From assembly GCA_002238505.1 (NCBI GenBank), contig MPMM01000011.1:1-64000 (forward strand): a DNA stretch of 64,000 nt, read 5' to 3'. The notes under the pieces were generated by a model, which was not told the DNA's origin, searched no databases, and worked only from the letters and a program-made list of their open reading frames with translations. The DNA is from SAR202 cluster bacterium bin22 (GTDB lineage Bacteria > Chloroflexota > Dehalococcoidia > Lucifugimonadales > UBA3495). Shown in pieces: positions 25,713-37,200 of this stretch. The position numbers and the translations under genes were made by a program. Every line of letters starts with the position of its first letter. Position 1 is the stretch's first letter.

Positions 25713-28700
25713 TCAGGGTGTTGGCTTGGCTCCATCGGGAATGGGCCCGTCGTTCACGGTTAGTGTGTATTTCCCGGTTTCCCCCCTGGGATTCCAGACT
25801 ATCACGTAGTAATTTCCGCCATACCTTGCGTGCCAGGTCAGGTACTTGCCGCCCTCGCGCTCCCCGTCCCTGTGCCAAGCATAGGATGTGTAACCCCTGG
25901 CGTCATAGAACGATAGCAATGTCTCGTCCAGAGCGCTGGGGGCGTATTCGACCAGGATTTCGTATCGCCTGCCGCCTGTGGCATTCAGCTCGAAAAAGTC
26001 GAAGTCATCTGCATGGTCCAGGCTGCCCCCGAGAGGTACGCCTACTTCAAGATCCGTTGCAGTTGACTGAATATTGCCGTGGTCGTCTCTGCCTCGGACA
26101 CCAGGAATGATCTTTAGCTCGTACTTCCCAAGGTCGCCGTCGGGGCTGTGCATAACCACGAAGTAATCGTCCGTTTTGGGAGCCACCCAGGACAGGATTG
26201 ACCCGTAACTCTCCAGCCCGAAGGGTCTGGTAGGACCCAGAGGGGTTTCACCATCAGTATCGAGCAGTTTCAGTGGTTGATCGAACAAATCCAGGTAATT
26301 CACCTTGAAGTGATAAGTTTCTCCCGCAATAGCGGAAAACCGGAAGTAGTCCTGGTCCGTGTCTTCGTTTAATTGCCCCTTCACCCATTGGCCAACCTCC
26401 AGGGGAGTAGCCCAGGATGGTTTGTCGTCGTGCGGGTCTCTGCTGGGTATTTGTTGCTCCACAACCAGCCTGTATTCGCCGGTATCCCCCTGTGGGGAAA
26501 AAACCTTGACGAAATACGTGCCATCACCGGCGGAGCGAAAGGATATTTCAGACCCCTTTAGTCCCCATTGCCAGTGGATCGGTTCAACGAATTCCCCGTC
26601 TGAATCGTAACTCTCCACCTTGGAAAGGTTCAATGTTACGTTTTCTACAACGGCCGCGTAACCCCACCTTGCTATTGTTTCCAGCTTGAAATAATCAACA
26701 TCGCCGGCAGAGTTCAATGCGCCGGCTATTTCTTTACCGTACTCAACGGGCGTGGCTTCCTGGGGATAATCGCCGTGCTGGTCATCCTTGACAAACCCCA
26801 TGTAGAGAGAATAGGGCCCGGAGTATCCATAAAGGCTGTCCACGGCTAAGTAGTAGGCGCCGGACTCGGGCGCTATCCAATAGGTTTCTATATCCCCCAA
26901 ATGCTTTGGTCCAGCCCTCAGGAGGTATCTGATTAGATTGCCATCATCATCCAATATACGTACCCTGAGGTAGGAGTAGAGGGCGCGATTTCGTACCTGA
27001 TGGTTTATGGTCACCCGGTACGCCTTGCCACCATCGGCCAGCGTCCGGAAATGATCCGTATCCCAGGCGTGGTCCAGGACTCCGTGGCGCGTCACGCCGG
27101 CGGGCAGACCCGAGGCTCGGGACTGCTCATCTGAGTGGTCGTCAGGTCCGGAGGGAATGGGTACCGTAATCGGTCCGCCATGCAACCTTCGGAACAGGTT
27201 CTCAAGTTCATCCCGCTGACCAGGCTTAACATTCTGGCGGAAGAAATGGAGAATCAGCTTGTCCGTAAGCCGCCCTCCATCCCGGCTGTAGGTGTAGGTT
27301 AGGATGTCCTTCAGGGATGCGGACGTCACTTCTTCACCCAGAGAGAAATACAGGGCGGACAAGATCAGATTCCCCAATCCCTGTATGCAACCGCCGTATA
27401 GCTGAGGCCGGTCGGAAAGGACGGGCTCGGCCATCTTGCTCAAGTCTCCTGCACCGGCCTGGCAACGCTCGCCGATGCGATCCTCGACGGAGCTTCTCCA
27501 CTGGCTCCTCGAACCATAATTTCCGTTGGCCGATATGTAACTGGCGGCAAATTCCTCGGCGCCTTCAATAGACCAGGTGGGCAATCCTTGAAAATAGTAG
27601 CGGGACAGTTGGAGGAAAAGAGTCTCCCTGAACACCGGTTCACTTCCGAATCTTGGTATCCGAATAAAGGCTCCCAAATGGTCTCCATTCGGCCAGTCCG
27701 TGCTGAGGTTGGACTTGGACAGTTCGAATTCCGATCGGGAGTTTACCCGGGTTATGGACACTATCACCTCCTGGGTGGGCAAGCCCAGGCCGGTGAGTTT
27801 CTCCAGCTGTAGGAGAGCCATCTCAATGTCGAAAAAGAGGGCCTCAGCCTCAGCCAGCGGGCCATTATTGACCAAACGGATTTCGACCCTGCCGCTTAGA
27901 GGAAGGTCAACAGAACGGGGTTCAACATACGGATTCCCATGCATTTCGTAGAATTGGTCGGGAGCGTTAATCAGGATGTCCGGAGCAACCACGAGGAACG
28001 CCTCTTCGTCAGCGTCAACACCATCCCAGTACCACTCCTGCAGCTTGGTTTCCTCCCAGGCTTCCTTGTGACTTCGAAACATGGCCCTGAGGCTGGCTAT
28101 CCGCTGTTGTTGATCCGTCCTCGAACCTGCCACCAGGGAAGCGGCCACTCTCCGGGCCATGGGCAGGTTCTCACTGGCCACAAAGACCAGATCGTCAATG
28201 GGGTCCCAGTGGTTGTGTGATGGAGTCGTTTCCTCAGAGATCCAGGGATGAGAAAGGACAGTCAATGCCAGGTCGAAGTCTGCGCCCACCAGCCTGTTCA
28301 AAGAATAGGCCAACCCGGCGTCATCCTGGTTGATTCCATCTACAAACCAGGGCATGTCAAGAAAAAGGCCAGCGACATCGGGCCCTCTCAGGAAAAATGG
28401 CCGCAGGTCTCTGAAACCCTCTGCTTCCGCATTGGTGAGTCCGTCGGCAAACCAGGGAAGCGTCACCAACTGGAGAGAGATTTCTGGAGACTCAATAGCC
28501 ATCTCCGTAATGGCGGCGGCTCCCCAAGTCTCCCTCACAGTTAACCCGTCCCTCACCCAGTAATAGTCCAGGAGGACATGGCTGGAAGGCCTATCTCGGC
28601 TCATATTTCCGAAGACGTACTGCATTGAGTCAACCTCATCCAGGTCCACCCCGTCAGCAACCCAGTCCAGACCCACTATTCGAGATGCCAGGTCAGCATC

Positions 28701-29447
28701 AAAGAAGGCCAGGTTGGAGATAATCTCCAGGGCTAAGCTCTCATTCAAGCTCATTCCATCTACAACCCACGGGAACCCGGCGACCGCTCTTCCCAGGTTC
28801 GCGTCGGCTACCCGGATTGTCAGCAGCACATTTGCGGCTCTTCTGTGAATGCCCCCCTGGGGGTCGGCAAACCACGGCACCATCTCGGTCAGTTCGGCCG
28901 TAGATGCGGCCTGAACGTTGATGGGAGTGGACGTTGGCTCCGGAAAAACGGGGGCTCTTTCGGTCAGAGAAACCTGCAGTTCCTCGGCAGAGGGAGTCGC
29001 GGTGGGGGAAACAACCCGCGCTTCTTCCGGTGCCGGAGTCACTGTCGGCGCCAGGGTGGGTGTGGCAGTGGCGGCAGGAGCTGGTGTTGGTGTTTGTGTG
29101 GCAGTTGGCGCCGGTGTGGGTGTTGGCGAAGGCAAAGACAAAGGCAAGGGCCCGGTTTCAGGTAAAACCGGCTGCCGGGGAATGGTCACGTTACGAGTCA
29201 GGGGAACGGGTGTCGGGACATAGGCGGGAATGGGCGGCGCCAAAGTTGGGGCTGGTGACGGAAACGGCGCAACAGCAGGGACCTGGGCACCCGGTTGCGG
29301 TGCGGAACTGGACGAAGAGCCTGGTTCCTGATCGTCTTGCTGGCAAGCCAGAAGGGAAACGGCTACCAGGGCAGCCAAGGCCACCAGGATATACCCTCGG
29401 GCAAAGGGCCCCACAGAACGGCTGCCAAATTGCCAGACTCCCAGCAT
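25713..29447 (-). CDS. Large lipoprotein: WxxDG repeats, peptidase-like fold lacking HExxH, four PPC-type domains
   Basis: About 1244 residues from ATG 29447 (strong GGAGGAGGGGAAGT site upstream). Leader ending LVALAALVAVSLLAC (lipobox), Pro/Thr-rich linker to ~residue 165. Residues ~190-420 contain repeats PWVVDGMS-like: GFPWVVDGMSLNESLALEII, LDWVADGVDLDEVDSMQYVF, LPWFADGLTNAEAEGFRDL and MPWFVDGINQDDAGLAYSL. Residues ~560-680 resemble gluzincin peptidases (LPTWSIEGAEEFAASYISAN), but the helix that should carry HExxH reads FRETLFLQLSRYYF. The last ~470 residues hold about four pre-peptidase C-terminal-type beta domains (DTDHFRTL, DVDYFKLE, DQDYFRFS, DFDFFELN). Anchored outside the cell. Probably non-catalytic or using an unknown chemistry. 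Confidence 0.8.
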   Translation of the reverse strand: MLGVWQFGSRSVGPFARGYILVALAALVAVSLLACQQDDQEPGSSSSSAPQPGAQVPAVAPFPSPAPTLAPPIPAYVPTPVPLTRNVTIPRQPVLPETGPLPLSLPSPTPTPAPTATQTPTPAPAATATPTLAPTVTPAPEEARVVSPTATPSAEELQVSLTERAPVFPEPTSTPINVQAASTAELTEMVPWFADPQGGIHRRAANVLLTIRVADANLGRAVAGFPWVVDGMSLNESLALEIISNLAFFDADLASRIVGLDWVADGVDLDEVDSMQYVFGNMSRDRPSSHVLLDYYWVRDGLTVRETWGAAAITEMAIESPEISLQLVTLPWFADGLTNAEAEGFRDLRPFFLRGPDVAGLFLDMPWFVDGINQDDAGLAYSLNRLVGADFDLALTVLSHPWISEETTPSHNHWDPIDDLVFVASENLPMARRVAASLVAGSRTDQQQRIASLRAMFRSHKEAWEETKLQEWYWDGVDADEEAFLVVAPDILINAPDQFYEMHGNPYVEPRSVDLPLSGRVEIRLVNNGPLAEAEALFFDIEMALLQLEKLTGLGLPTQEVIVSITRVNSRSEFELSKSNLSTDWPNGDHLGAFIRIPRFGSEPVFRETLFLQLSRYYFQGLPTWSIEGAEEFAASYISANGNYGSRSQWRSSVEDRIGERCQAGAGDLSKMAEPVLSDRPQLYGGCIQGLGNLILSALYFSLGEEVTSASLKDILTYTYSRDGGRLTDKLILHFFRQNVKPGQRDELENLFRRLHGGPITVPIPSGPDDHSDEQSRASGLPAGVTRHGVLDHAWDTDHFRTLADGGKAYRVTINHQVRNRALYSYLRVRILDDDGNLIRYLLRAGPKHLGDIETYWIAPESGAYYLAVDSLYGYSGPYSLYMGFVKDDQHGDYPQEATPVEYGKEIAGALNSAGDVDYFKLETIARWGYAAVVENVTLNLSKVESYDSDGEFVEPIHWQWGLKGSEISFRSAGDGTYFVKVFSPQGDTGEYRLVVEQQIPSRDPHDDKPSWATPLEVGQWVKGQLNEDTDQDYFRFSAIAGETYHFKVNYLDLFDQPLKLLDTDGETPLGPTRPFGLESYGSILSWVAPKTDDYFVVMHSPDGDLGKYELKIIPGVRGRDDHGNIQSTATDLEVGVPLGGSLDHADDFDFFELNATGGRRYEILVEYAPSALDETLLSFYDARGYTSYAWHRDGEREGGKYLTWHARYGGNYYVIVWNPRGETGKYTLTVNDGPIPDGAKPTP

Positions 29448-29705
29448 ACTTCCCCTCCTCCACACATCGCCTGCCAGGACTTTCCCCGGAAATTATCAGT
29501 GGCTACAGCACCGTCCCTGGTTACCCACAGCATTTTAGCGACAGAAGCAGCGGCTGGCAAAGTTTCGTGAACGTGGAAGCTGACTATCCCTCATCGTGAG
29601 CTGGGGTTATCCCTGTGCCGAAGGCGCGATCGCCGGGGGTGATCTGTCGTTTCGGGGGTAATGGAAAGCCGGGTCAGACACGGTTGAAGGAACCATGCCA
29701 ACAGC
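29448..29705. other. Intergenic region, no gene seen
   Basis: Spacer of about 260 bases between the large lipoprotein start and the promoter of the selenoprotein gene; divergent transcription from both ends. Nothing else recognised. Confidence 0.5.
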
Positions 29706-29734: not shown

Positions 29735-29819
29735 CAAGTTAAAAGAGGCGCCCCGCGATGCCCACGAGGCGATGGCGGCAAAAGCCCTTTAATCACCCCG
29801 ACTTGCGAAGGAATACGGT

Positions 29820-31541
29820 ATGAAAGTGCAGATAATGTCCCCCGCAGCCGACCGCGTGGATTTCAAGGTGCCCCCTGCCCCCAGACTTGCGTCCTTTGAG
29901 GGCAAGACCATTGGCCTGTACAACAACGTGACCGGCGGGGCGGACGTTGCCGTCGAACGCTTCGCCGAGCAGTTGCGGACCCGGTATCCCAGCGTCAAAT
30001 TCGAGCGCTATGGCGGAGACCTGCGCGAGGGGCGTCCGGTACTAAGCCGGGGCGTCCATATCGACGACGAGGAGGCTGCCCGCATTGCCACCGAGGTTGA
30101 CGCCATGGTGGGGGCTACGGCCCATTGAGGAGGCTGCACGTCGTGGCTTAGCCATGACATGGTTGCCATGGAAAAGGCGGGGATTCCCACCGTGGCCATC
30201 GCGGCCCAGAGCTTTGCGCGGGCGTGGCAGTCCTGCGTGGACGGCTGGGGACAGCCCACATCCGCTTATGTCATCATTCCCCACGCCACTACGGGGCAGC
30301 AACCCGACTTTATTCGCAGCATGGTGGACGAGCAGGTTGACGCCATAATCCAGGGCCTCACCACCGTGCAGACTTCTCGCGGGCCGATCACCGCCCAGAA
30401 GACCGGCGGGGCCACCGAGGTTTTCACGGTGGAGATGGACGCCTCCCCCGAGGGCATTGACGCGGTAAACCGTTTCCTGGCCGAACGGGATTGGAGCGAT
30501 GGCATTCCGGTGGTGCCTCCCACTCCCGAACTGGTGGAACGTATGCTGGCTGGCACCAGCCGAAGTCCACAGGACGTGCTGATGGTTATGGAGCCCGGGT
30601 TTGGGGTAGCCACCGTCGAGAAGGTGGCGATCAACGCCGTGATGGCCGGGTGCCGCCCCGAACAGTTCCCGATCCTGCTGGCGGCCATTGACTGCCTGGC
30701 CCAGCCGGAAATGAACCACAGGGATATGCAGGTGTCCGGCCACACCGAGGCCCCGTTGATCCTGGTCAATGGGCCCATTGCCCAGCGGGCCGGCATTAAC
30801 TGCGGCACGTCGGCAATGGGTCCCGGCGTGGTAAACAGCGCCAACACCGCTATCGGGCGGGCGCTGCGGCTGTGCCTCATCAATATCGGCTACTGCAAGG
30901 CAGGGACGGGGGACCCCAACTTCATTGGTTTGCCCACGAAGTTTGGCATGTGTATCGCTGAGAACGAGGAACTCAGCCCCTGGCAGCCGTACCACGTGGA
31001 CCAGGGCTTTCAGCCCCACGAAAGCGCGGTGACGGTGGTAACCGTTACGGGCCCTGGCGACATCCTGGACTCGGGTTCCAGGAGCCACAAGGACACGTTG
31101 AACAACATCGCCCAGCTGATGTACTACCCAGGCTCGGGCAACGGCAGCTGGATTCGCGGCTGGCAATCGGCGCAGGTAGGGCACACCAACCAGCGGGTGT
31201 CATATCCCGGTCCCTACCACCCGGTAATGCTCAGTCCTTCCCGGGCAGTAATTCTTGCGCAGGCCGGGTTCAGCAAGCGGGACGCCCAGGAATGGCTGCA
31301 CGAGCGTTGCCGGGTGTCATTGAAAGAGGCTATCGGCAGCAGAGGCGTTCCCAAGGATGAAAACGGCAAGTGGCTGCATCACCCGGAATTGCAGGCTCTG
31401 GAAAATGATCCGGACGCCACCATCCCCATGCTGGAGAATCCGGAGCAGTACCTGCTGTTCGTCACGGGCGGCACCACCCACTACGCCAACTTTTTCTACG
31501 GGACGTATGGCATCGCCACCCGACCGGTGGAGGAGTTCTAG
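29820..31541 (+). CDS. UGSC-type selenoprotein (UGGC motif) with large C-terminal domain
   Basis: 573 residues if TGA at 30126-30128 is read as selenocysteine (residue 103). ATG 29820 follows GAAGGAA. Residues 1-102 and everything after the TGA are in one frame: IATEVDAMVGATAH, then Sec-Gly-Gly-Cys (UGGC), then TSWLSHDMVAMEKAGIPTVA. This matches my recollection of the UGSC (seleno)protein family, in which U-G-S-C is followed by TSW and a helix. The N-terminal domain is a small alpha/beta fold (KTIGLYNNVTGGADVAVERF). Residues ~190-573 form a second domain (WSDGIPVVPPTPELVERMLA, MSAMGPGVV-like TSAMGPGVVNSANTAIG) that I cannot name. Likely a cytosolic redox enzyme. An ordinary caller would give a 102-residue stub and a headless 460-residue protein starting at 30159. 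Confidence 0.85.
30140..30158 (+). promoter_or_regulatory. Candidate bacterial SECIS hairpin after the UGGC codon
   Basis: Starting 12 bases after the TGA, GTCGTGGC (30140-30147) pairs with GCCATGAC (30151-30158) with one G-U wobble, giving an 8-bp stem and UUA loop. The loop position relative to TGA is that of the E. coli fdhF element. An alternative is CATGG/CCATG with a TTG loop at 30158-30170. The loop lacks the E. coli-type GGU, so this assignment is moderate. Confidence 0.5.
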
Positions 31542-31583: not shown

Positions 31584-31613
31584 AGCGGGGTGAAGATGCA
31601 TCTTCACCCCGCT
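31584..31613. repeat. Perfect 30-base inverted repeat
   Basis: AGCGGGGTGAAGATG (31584-31598) is followed directly by its exact reverse complement (31599-31613). It lies 43 bases after the selenoprotein stop and may act as a terminator or REP-like element. No T tract follows. Confidence 0.6.
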
Positions 31614-34728: not shown

Positions 34729-37200
34729 GTGGCAGGACCATGTACCGGCCTTACTGTGCTGGATTTCTCGCAGGGTATGCCGGGCGCCATCTGCACCCTG
34801 GTGCTGGCCGACTACGGCGCCGAAGTCATTAAGGTTGAACCTCCCGGCGGCGACCCCTTCCGTTTCCAGCCAGGCTGGATTTCCTGGAATCGAGGCAAAA
34901 AGGGCATAGTCCTGGACCTGGATAGCGAGGAGGGCCGGCTCGCAGCCGTCCGCCTGGCCGGCAAGGCCGATGTGCTGGTGGAGTCCTCCCGCCCCGGAGA
35001 CATGGAAGAATGGGGCTTGTCGTTTGACCACCTCTCGGAGCTTTACCCTGGCTTGGTCTATTGCTCCATTACCGGCTTTGGGCAAAAGGGGCCATTGAAC
35101 CGGGTAAGGGGTTACGAAGGCGTAGTTGCTGCCAAGGCTGGCCGGATGCTGAACATGCAGGGCCAGCCCGACCGTGACGGACCGGTTTACTCGGCAGTCA
35201 ATACCGGAAGCTGGCACGCCAGCCAGGCCGCGGTCCGGGGAATCCTGGCGGCGCTTCGGGTCCGGGACCTGTCGGGACGCGGACAGTGGGTCCAGACCAG
35301 CATTGTCCAGGCCCTGGCATCTCCCCATGACAACAACGCCGGCGCCGGGGGCCTGGTGAATCTGCAGCTCGCTCGGAAGGACCCGGAGCGGTACCCCGTG
35401 CGGGCCGCCAGCCGGGGTCTCTCCACCATAGGCTACATTCCCGTGCGTACCAAGGACGGCGCCTGGCTCCAGCACGCCAACCAGAGAGTCCCCCACATTC
35501 AGGGTCATCTCAAGGCTATTGGCCTGGAGCATCTGCTGGAGGACGAACGATTCGCCAGGGTACCCGCCATTGACGTGGAAAACCGGGAGTTGCTCCGGCG
35601 GGAGATCCTGAAGCAACAGTCGGAACAGACAGCCGAAGAGTGGATGAACCTCTATCTGGAGGACGGCAATATTGCCGCTGAACCCTATCGGAGCAGTGTT
35701 CAGGCCATGGACCATCCGGCGGTGGTCTCCAACGGTACGGTAGTGACAATCAACGACCCGGGCGTGGGAGTTATGCGCACCCTGGCCCCACTTGTGGATT
35801 TGAAGGACACCCCGGGGGAACCCAGCGGCCCGGCCGCGGCTGCCGGTCAGCACAACGATGAAGTTCTGGGTGACTTGGGCGGTCCGGAAAAGGCGGCGGA
35901 AGACTCTCTATCCACGGGAAATGTCGGCAATCTTCCACCGCATCCCCTGTCAGGAATTACGGTGCTGGACCTGGCGACCATCCAGGCCGGACCCTACGGC
36001 GCCTCTCTTTTGGCGGACCTGGGGGCGCGGGTTATAAAGGTTGACGCTACGGACCGTCGGCTGGACGAAGGGCGACGGTCCACCGCCCAGTCAATAGCCG
36101 AACCACGCACCTACGCCGGCAAGGAAGGCATCCAGATAGACCTCCAGACCCCGGAGGGCAAGGAGATCATCCACAAGCTCATCGCCAGGGCGGATGTTCT
36201 GTCACACAACTTTCGCCTGGGCGTTCCGGAACGCCTGGGAATAGACTGGGAGACCTGCCAGAAGATTAATCCCCGCCTGGTCCATGTCTGGATGGGAACG
36301 TATGGCGAGCACGGGGAGCACTCCGGCCGGCCTGGCGCCCACCCCATACCTGGCGCAATTATGGGCGGCGCATTGCGGCAGATGGGTCGGGGAATGCCGC
36401 CTCCTCCGGAACAGGTTCTGGATGTTGAGGAAACAGTGGAAGCAACCCGCTGGATTATGAAGTCCAATTGGGGTCCTGATCAGAATACCTCCCCCGCGCT
36501 GGCCACGGGAGTTATGCTGGCTCTCCGAGCCAGGGACATTACCGGCAAGGGCCAACCCCTCCACGTCACCATGCTCAACGCCAACGCCTGGACCAACGCC
36601 GATGAGTATTTCGATTACGCTGGACGTCCGCCCATTGTTCGTCCGGACGAAGACATTCACGGCCTCGATGCCCTATATCGTCTCTACCGCTGCCGCGAAG
36701 GGTGGGTGTTTCTTGGGTGTCTGTTTCAGGAAGAGTGGGAGGCTTTTTGCCGCGCCGTAGGTCGGGAAGACCTTTTGGCGGACCATCATTACTCCACCCG
36801 GGAGGCAAGGCTGGACAACGACGAGGCCTTGATTGCCGAAATTTCGGCAATTTTCGCGGGGCGTACCGCCGCCGAGTGGGAAGAGTTGCTCATCGAGGCA
36901 GAAGTGGGGTGCGTTCAGGCCGACGAAGCCCTGGAGGGCGATTTCTATGCCGACCACCCCCATGCCAGGGCCAACGAACTGAGCGTTGAGGTTGAACATC
37001 CGTACATCGGCAAATATTTGCGTTACGGCGGGCTCGTTGAATTTTCCCTGACCCCGGGTCTGTACCGTACATCAATTCAGGTTGGCCAGCACACCAGGCC
37101 CCTGCTGCGGGAGTTGGGTTACAGCGACGATGACATCGAAGCCCTGGGCGGGCAGGGCATTGTGCAGTGGCCGGACCTTTCGGCCGGCGGCGAGCCATAG
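34729..37200 (+). CDS. Fused tandem CaiB/BaiF CoA transferase
   Basis: 823 residues from GTG 34729 (GAGGTGA five bases upstream). Two class III CoA-transferase domains in one chain: residues 1-~385 (TVLDFSQGMPGAICTLVLAD, YGAEVIKVEPPGGDPFR, GLVYCSITGFGQKGPLN) and ~405-823 (TVLDLATIQAGPYGASLLAD, LGARVIKVDATDRR, RLVHVWMGTYGEHGEHSG). Class III enzymes are interlocked dimers, so a fusion would make an internal pseudo-heterodimer. At the position of the catalytic Asp, by eye, the second domain has GPDQNTSPA while the first reads NTGSWHASQ with no Asp, suggesting only one active site. Divergent from the HpaB-like gene. Confidence 0.85.
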   Translation: MAGPCTGLTVLDFSQGMPGAICTLVLADYGAEVIKVEPPGGDPFRFQPGWISWNRGKKGIVLDLDSEEGRLAAVRLAGKADVLVESSRPGDMEEWGLSFDHLSELYPGLVYCSITGFGQKGPLNRVRGYEGVVAAKAGRMLNMQGQPDRDGPVYSAVNTGSWHASQAAVRGILAALRVRDLSGRGQWVQTSIVQALASPHDNNAGAGGLVNLQLARKDPERYPVRAASRGLSTIGYIPVRTKDGAWLQHANQRVPHIQGHLKAIGLEHLLEDERFARVPAIDVENRELLRREILKQQSEQTAEEWMNLYLEDGNIAAEPYRSSVQAMDHPAVVSNGTVVTINDPGVGVMRTLAPLVDLKDTPGEPSGPAAAAGQHNDEVLGDLGGPEKAAEDSLSTGNVGNLPPHPLSGITVLDLATIQAGPYGASLLADLGARVIKVDATDRRLDEGRRSTAQSIAEPRTYAGKEGIQIDLQTPEGKEIIHKLIARADVLSHNFRLGVPERLGIDWETCQKINPRLVHVWMGTYGEHGEHSGRPGAHPIPGAIMGGALRQMGRGMPPPPEQVLDVEETVEATRWIMKSNWGPDQNTSPALATGVMLALRARDITGKGQPLHVTMLNANAWTNADEYFDYAGRPPIVRPDEDIHGLDALYRLYRCREGWVFLGCLFQEEWEAFCRAVGREDLLADHHYSTREARLDNDEALIAEISAIFAGRTAAEWEELLIEAEVGCVQADEALEGDFYADHPHARANELSVEVEHPYIGKYLRYGGLVEFSLTPGLYRTSIQVGQHTRPLLRELGYSDDDIEALGGQGIVQWPDLSAGGEP

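Follow-up and report, generated by a model that had tools for sequence, protein, structure and literature searches.

A single in-frame TGA lies within an otherwise open reading frame of SAR202 cluster bacterium bin22, raising the question of whether this locus encodes two proteins or one selenoprotein, and of what such a protein might do. The frame is located in a 64,000-nucleotide stretch of the genome (hereafter the window), where it runs on the + strand from an ATG at 29820 to a TAG at 31539-31541. If the lone TGA, codon 103 at 30126-30128, is read through, the gene (29820..31541) encodes 573 amino acids. The initial annotation proposed that this TGA specifies selenocysteine in a protein of the UGSC type fused to a second large domain. 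Here we examine that proposal and the likely role of the two parts.

Selenocysteine decoding of a single gene

The reading frame has the outward features of one gene. A Shine-Dalgarno-like GAAGGA (29807..29812, +) is found 7 nt upstream of the ATG at 29820, while no such sequence is apparent upstream of the ATG at 30159. The TGA is followed by codons for Gly-Gly-Cys-Thr-Ser-Trp and remains in an open frame, with 470 codons between the TGA and the TAG. Downstream of the gene is a 13-bp palindromic hairpin (31584..31613) that is a possible terminator; it is listed on the minus strand, and the inverted repeat is symmetric. A 380-codon open frame also runs antisense to the gene (30042-31184, −), and most probably arises from the high G+C content of the coding strand.

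A scan of species genomes identified full-length homologues at 35 loci in as many genomes, with 66-96% identity to the window protein. In all 35, codon 103 is TGA and UGGC is retained, a degree of conservation far beyond what chance would produce, confirming the proposed union of a 102-codon N-terminal part with about 470 codons in the same frame. Apart from one bin labelled Proteobacteria, with a gene that falls inside the same group, their hosts are SAR202, Dehalococcoidia and Chloroflexota metagenome bins. More distant haloarchaeal and proteobacterial members carry Cys in place of residue 103. Comparison with the nearest four homologues gave dN/dS values of ∼0.05-0.09 upstream and 0.03-0.08 downstream of the TGA, indicative of purifying selection on both sides.

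A SECIS-like stem-loop (30140..30158, +; GUCGUGG/CCAUGAC) begins 11 nt 3′ of the UGA, and its 7-bp helix (GUCGUGG/CCAYGAC) is intact in 18 of 19 representatives and has a single broken base pair in the remaining one. Over the ten codons that follow the TGA, synonymous codon divergence drops to 0.19, whereas its median is 0.47; just 3 of the 573 ten-codon windows show values this low. The folding z-score of the stem in the window sequence is −2.0. An early G, usual in the loops of classical bacterial SECIS elements, is missing from the predicted loop (CUUGC or UUA), and this is the sole imperfect point in the case for selenocysteine decoding. Loops at the same place in three UGSC paralogues from this genome contain GU, although one of these structures is not the minimum-energy fold. 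An Rfam search of the window returned no match, so the SECIS-like element is without Rfam support.

The genome also encodes the machinery needed for selenocysteine insertion, namely SelA, SelB, SelD and a tRNA-Sec with a TCA anticodon. The SelD gene (G000:C57:40142-41065, locus L094) carries a TGA of its own within the motif CAGUAAK, and its product is itself a selenoprotein. A conserved in-frame UGA, Cys in other homologues and a host with Sec machinery, three features by which bacterial selenoproteins are recognized, are present.

Standard annotation would treat the TGA as a true stop, leaving a decayed or split gene pair. We consider this highly improbable given the TGA in every one of the 35 homologues, the strong selection on both sides of it and the complete Sec machinery. 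Moreover, an independent C-terminal protein beginning at 30159 is not observed among homologues: where the C-terminal part is encoded separately, its alignment with the window protein begins at residue 181 or later, mostly at residues 203-226 and never at codon 114 (30159), and the gene adjoins a separate UGSC gene. On this sequence evidence, TGA 30126 is a selenocysteine codon within a single 573-residue gene.

The UGSC domain and its kinship with selenoprotein B

An HMM search with the read-through translation confirmed its assignment to the UGSC type. Residues 5-181 (29832..30362, +) match Pfam family PF24696 with an E value of 6e-30 and 105 bits (cut-off 25), covering profile positions 2-171 of 172. 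The NCBIfam UGSC equivalog model NF041046 scores 84 bits, below its curated cut-off of 125, and the window protein is therefore assigned to a divergent UGSC branch. By sequence it belongs to the same superfamily as NF041046 but to a different subgroup. Features in common with the known family are the first 180 residues, a Sec-containing UxxC motif and the SECIS-like stem; the UGGC motif, the sub-cut-off score and the fused partner domain set it apart.

The literal UGSC motif is absent from the window protein and its 35 homologues, all of which have UGGC, and occurs in this genome's three paralogues. The Chloroflexota loci examined carry UGSC, UGGC, USTC, UGAC or UAGC, and one fused copy has lost the Sec/Cys pair. 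UGGC, initially regarded as an oddity, is thus a conserved subtype among several.

A functional lead comes from selenoprotein B of glycine, sarcosine and betaine reductases (GrdB) and its D-proline reductase counterpart (PrdB). A comparison of a profile of 27 UGSC domains with one of nine GrdB-type proteins that included the Sec region gave a probability of 94.7 and an E value of 6e-8, and the alignment places Sec over Sec and Cys over Cys. Its score of 55.2 compares with at most 27.9 in 30 column-shuffled controls. Detection of this relation required the Sec end in the profile; the PF07355 region alone, which lacks this end, gave no match to UGSC. NCBIfam models for GrdB, GrdF, GrdH, PrdB and selenoprotein B also match UGSC domains weakly but repeatedly, with the GrdB model matching 14 of 27 members (best single E value 9.7e-5). 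Matches of this type in the window protein span the Sec motif, with the GrdB model scoring 12 bits against a cut-off of 602. The profile E value and the NCBIfam matches together place the UGSC domain with the Sec-bearing C-terminal module of GrdB and PrdB, and support its homology to that domain at the sequence level.

Structure prediction adds a likely topology. A model of residues 1-185 (pLDDT 83.6, pTM 0.82) has a Rossmann-like alpha/beta arrangement, with strands at 30-35, 60-64, 95-99, 124-129 and 149-153, helices between them, and Sec103 opening the helix that follows the third strand. UxxC after a beta strand is shared with GrdB and PrdB. A structure search with this model returned generic Rossmann/flavodoxin-like matches, the best being 8s7v_H (Z 10.1), which stands barely above unrelated entries, and we claim no specific fold relative. 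None of the matches listed is a thioredoxin, an absence that is not evidence by itself. The modelled Rossmann-like topology speaks, provisionally, against the thioredoxin-like fold proposed in the literature. A search of the UGSC domain against PDB sequences gave no credible match.

No kinship with the rest of the GrdB and PrdB systems was detected. The N-terminal GRDB region (PF07355) was not matched in the window protein, which has a different partner domain and no recognizable GrdE or PrdA pyruvoyl subunit. Two short GrdB-like proteins are encoded elsewhere in the same genome (G000:C39:37378-37788 and G000:C53:155111-155596). The first of these (L104) runs on through a TGA (TPTUPLC) and is predicted to represent a further selenoprotein class in this organism.

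The partner domain, its pairing and its neighbours

The remainder of the window protein is a C-terminal domain (30420..31538, +) of about 370 residues; the initial annotation was correct in describing a large fused domain, although its estimate of some 400 residues was too high. An alignment of 26 members contains about 340 alignable positions, 16 of which are invariant, including Asp, Asn, Arg, Glu and Trp. No invariant Cys able to give a pyruvoyl group occurs in this alignment. The domain has no match in Pfam, NCBIfam (to an E value of 1) or PDB sequences, nor could any similarity to GrdE or PrdA be detected; the whole protein has no match in PHROGs. A full-length AlphaFold model built with 29 close orthologues had a mean pLDDT of 47.5 and was not used for claims about the fold.

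Wherever we examined a locus, the UGSC domain is either fused or adjacent to this partner. The three additional UGSC genes of the same genome contain TGA and each adjoins a separate gene for a C-terminal domain homologue (C53:121990 with 122589, C53:189916 with 191252, and C19:122340 with 121249). In a sample of the phylum, 32 of 301 genomes had a match, and all 29 divergent loci from those genomes carry both domains, as a single-frame fusion or as neighbouring genes. About half of the Chloroflexota genomes with both domains have fused copies, while the rest have neighbouring genes. A tree of 46 C-terminal domains places most fused copies, including that of the window, in one large group and requires at least four changes between fused and separate states, though several branches are weakly supported. 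This repeated pairing across loci and in the tree indicates that the fusion reflects joint working of the two parts and is not an oddity.

The architecture is also not as unusual as initially suggested, since fused copies are widespread and a fusion of UGSC with an uncharacterized domain termed Unknown_1 was reported in 2008 from marine metagenomes of the Global Ocean Sampling data (Zhang and Gladyshev, PMC2398784). Unknown_1 is likely the C-terminal domain of the window protein.

Plasmids carry the pair in several other lineages. The Cys form is found as separate genes in haloarchaea (CGSC) and in Roseovarius, Arthrobacter and Variovorax sp. SRS16, and as a fused gene in Variovorax boronicumulans, whereas Acidovorax sp. 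T1 has a fused Sec form. The latter gene (L111:5929-8603) sits on an IncP plasmid amid insertion sequences and metabolic genes. It is annotated only up to its UGA, just the splitting that was expected of standard annotation, and serves as a warning that annotation pipelines cut such genes at this codon. Fused copies that lack the redox pair adjoin aconitase X and DUF126 genes on plasmids of Vibrio europaeus (L113) and Sporomusa termitida (L114). On contig C21 of a further genome (G178), two fused copies lie close together (L064, 50384-51808; and 46373-47953), one with TGA and the other without a Sec/Cys pair (GDTRSGS); these are possibly an active and an inactive partner. No relatives were found on viral contigs.

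Genes near these loci provide some indication of an electron source. The top recurring neighbour in Chloroflexota is a gene for a TrxB-type flavoprotein, which is present on the same strand at 4 of 28 loci (at distances of 7, 22, 228 and 603 bp) and at 0 of 20 control regions, small counts that are suggestive only. TrxB is also encoded at plasmid loci L115, L117 (together with TrxA) and L118, and by similarity at L112. The window copy itself has no adjacent TrxB gene. SDR, CaiB, acyl-CoA dehydrogenase and ABC transporter genes were rejected as linked neighbours, either because they recur as often, or nearly so, in controls or because they are found at few loci.

Solute-binding proteins of tripartite carboxylate/TRAP transporters, CoA transferases and isocitrate lyase/PEP mutase-type genes are neighbours on the plasmids, which suggests that the substrate is a small organic acid. 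No substrate clue was consistent across loci. In the window, genes for an F420/FMN-type luciferase-like monooxygenase, an HpaB-type monooxygenase and a double CaiB CoA transferase (34729-37200, +; an 823-residue open frame with tandem CaiB-type halves) all lie past the downstream end of the selenoprotein gene, and none is obviously in an operon with it. On the other side, a 1250-residue open frame (25713-29465, −) has a lipoprotein-like start (LLACQQ), a proline/threonine-rich stretch and no NCBIfam match.

A proposed two-part reductase

We propose, with a probability of roughly 0.55, that the window protein is a selenol/thiol reductase of a small organic acid that is fed by thioredoxin reductase and acts in the manner of selenoprotein B within glycine or proline reductase. 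In glycine reduction, NADPH is the electron donor, and thioredoxin reductase and thioredoxin relay the electrons to GrdA and GrdB (PMC3091704); the TrxB neighbours would provide a similar link here. The enzyme selenolate participates in cleaving the bond that holds the leaving group, and a selenoether has been proposed as the intermediate (PMC10298544); a GrdB-like enzyme has been proposed to cleave the C-F bond of fluoroacetate (PMC10838667).

The sequence evidence supports decoding of UGA 30126 by SelB and tRNA-Sec, aided by the stem downstream of it. By analogy with these reductases, the C-terminal domain would hold the acid while the selenolate of Sec103 attacks a polarized bond in it. The UxxC residue Cys106 would then close a selenenyl-sulfide as the reduced product is released, and a TrxB-type reductase and thioredoxin, to judge from homology and gene neighbourhood, would restore the selenol. 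The obligate pairing and the conserved polar residues suggest that the C-terminal domain holds and polarizes the substrate; by binding and activating it, the domain would stand in for the pyruvoyl subunit that glycine and proline reductases use.

Several observations count against this proposal. The window copy has no TrxB gene beside it, and its C-terminal domain resembles neither GrdE nor PrdA and has no invariant Cys. In addition, the redox pair is lost from some fused relatives (Vibrio, Sporomusa and G178), and therefore not all members can work as Sec/Cys reductases. Such copies, two of them next to aconitase X and DUF126 genes, would be explained if the C-terminal domain were the catalyst and UGSC served only in electron transfer or regulation, in which case proteins lacking Sec and Cys would still be enzymes. 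The 16 invariant positions of the domain are in keeping with this idea, but nearly all other members retain Sec or Cys together with the second Cys, and we regard it as unlikely, if still a serious contender.

A less probable explanation is general thiol redox chemistry, in which UGSC would act as a thioredoxin-like peroxide or disulfide reductase and the C-terminal domain would be passive. The 2008 survey (PMC2398784) listed UGSC as likely thioredoxin-like, the UxxC motif agrees with this view, and TrxB neighbours would suit any thiol reductase. However, the modelled fold is Rossmann-like and has Sec following its third strand, the detected homology is to GrdB and PrdB, and pairing with a conserved, enzyme-like domain is obligate.

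UGSC and its partner may constitute a separate and largely uncharacterized branch of selenol/thiol-dependent reductive bond-cleaving enzymes, an idea we put forward tentatively. Such enzymes would be kin to glycine and proline reductases, have a new domain for substrate binding where those enzymes have the pyruvoyl subunit, and occur in SAR202, other bacteria and haloarchaea. UGSC proteins rank among the most common marine selenoproteins, with 255 sequences in the Global Ocean Sampling survey (PMC2398784), yet they have had no assigned function. The kinship of UGSC with GrdB and PrdB, the universal pairing with the partner in sampled loci and the link to TrxB are new here, and fused genes such as that of the window lend themselves to single-chain expression. 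With an obligate partner, GrdB/PrdB kinship and TrxB neighbours, what was an “unknown redox protein” becomes a two-part reductase that can be put to the test.
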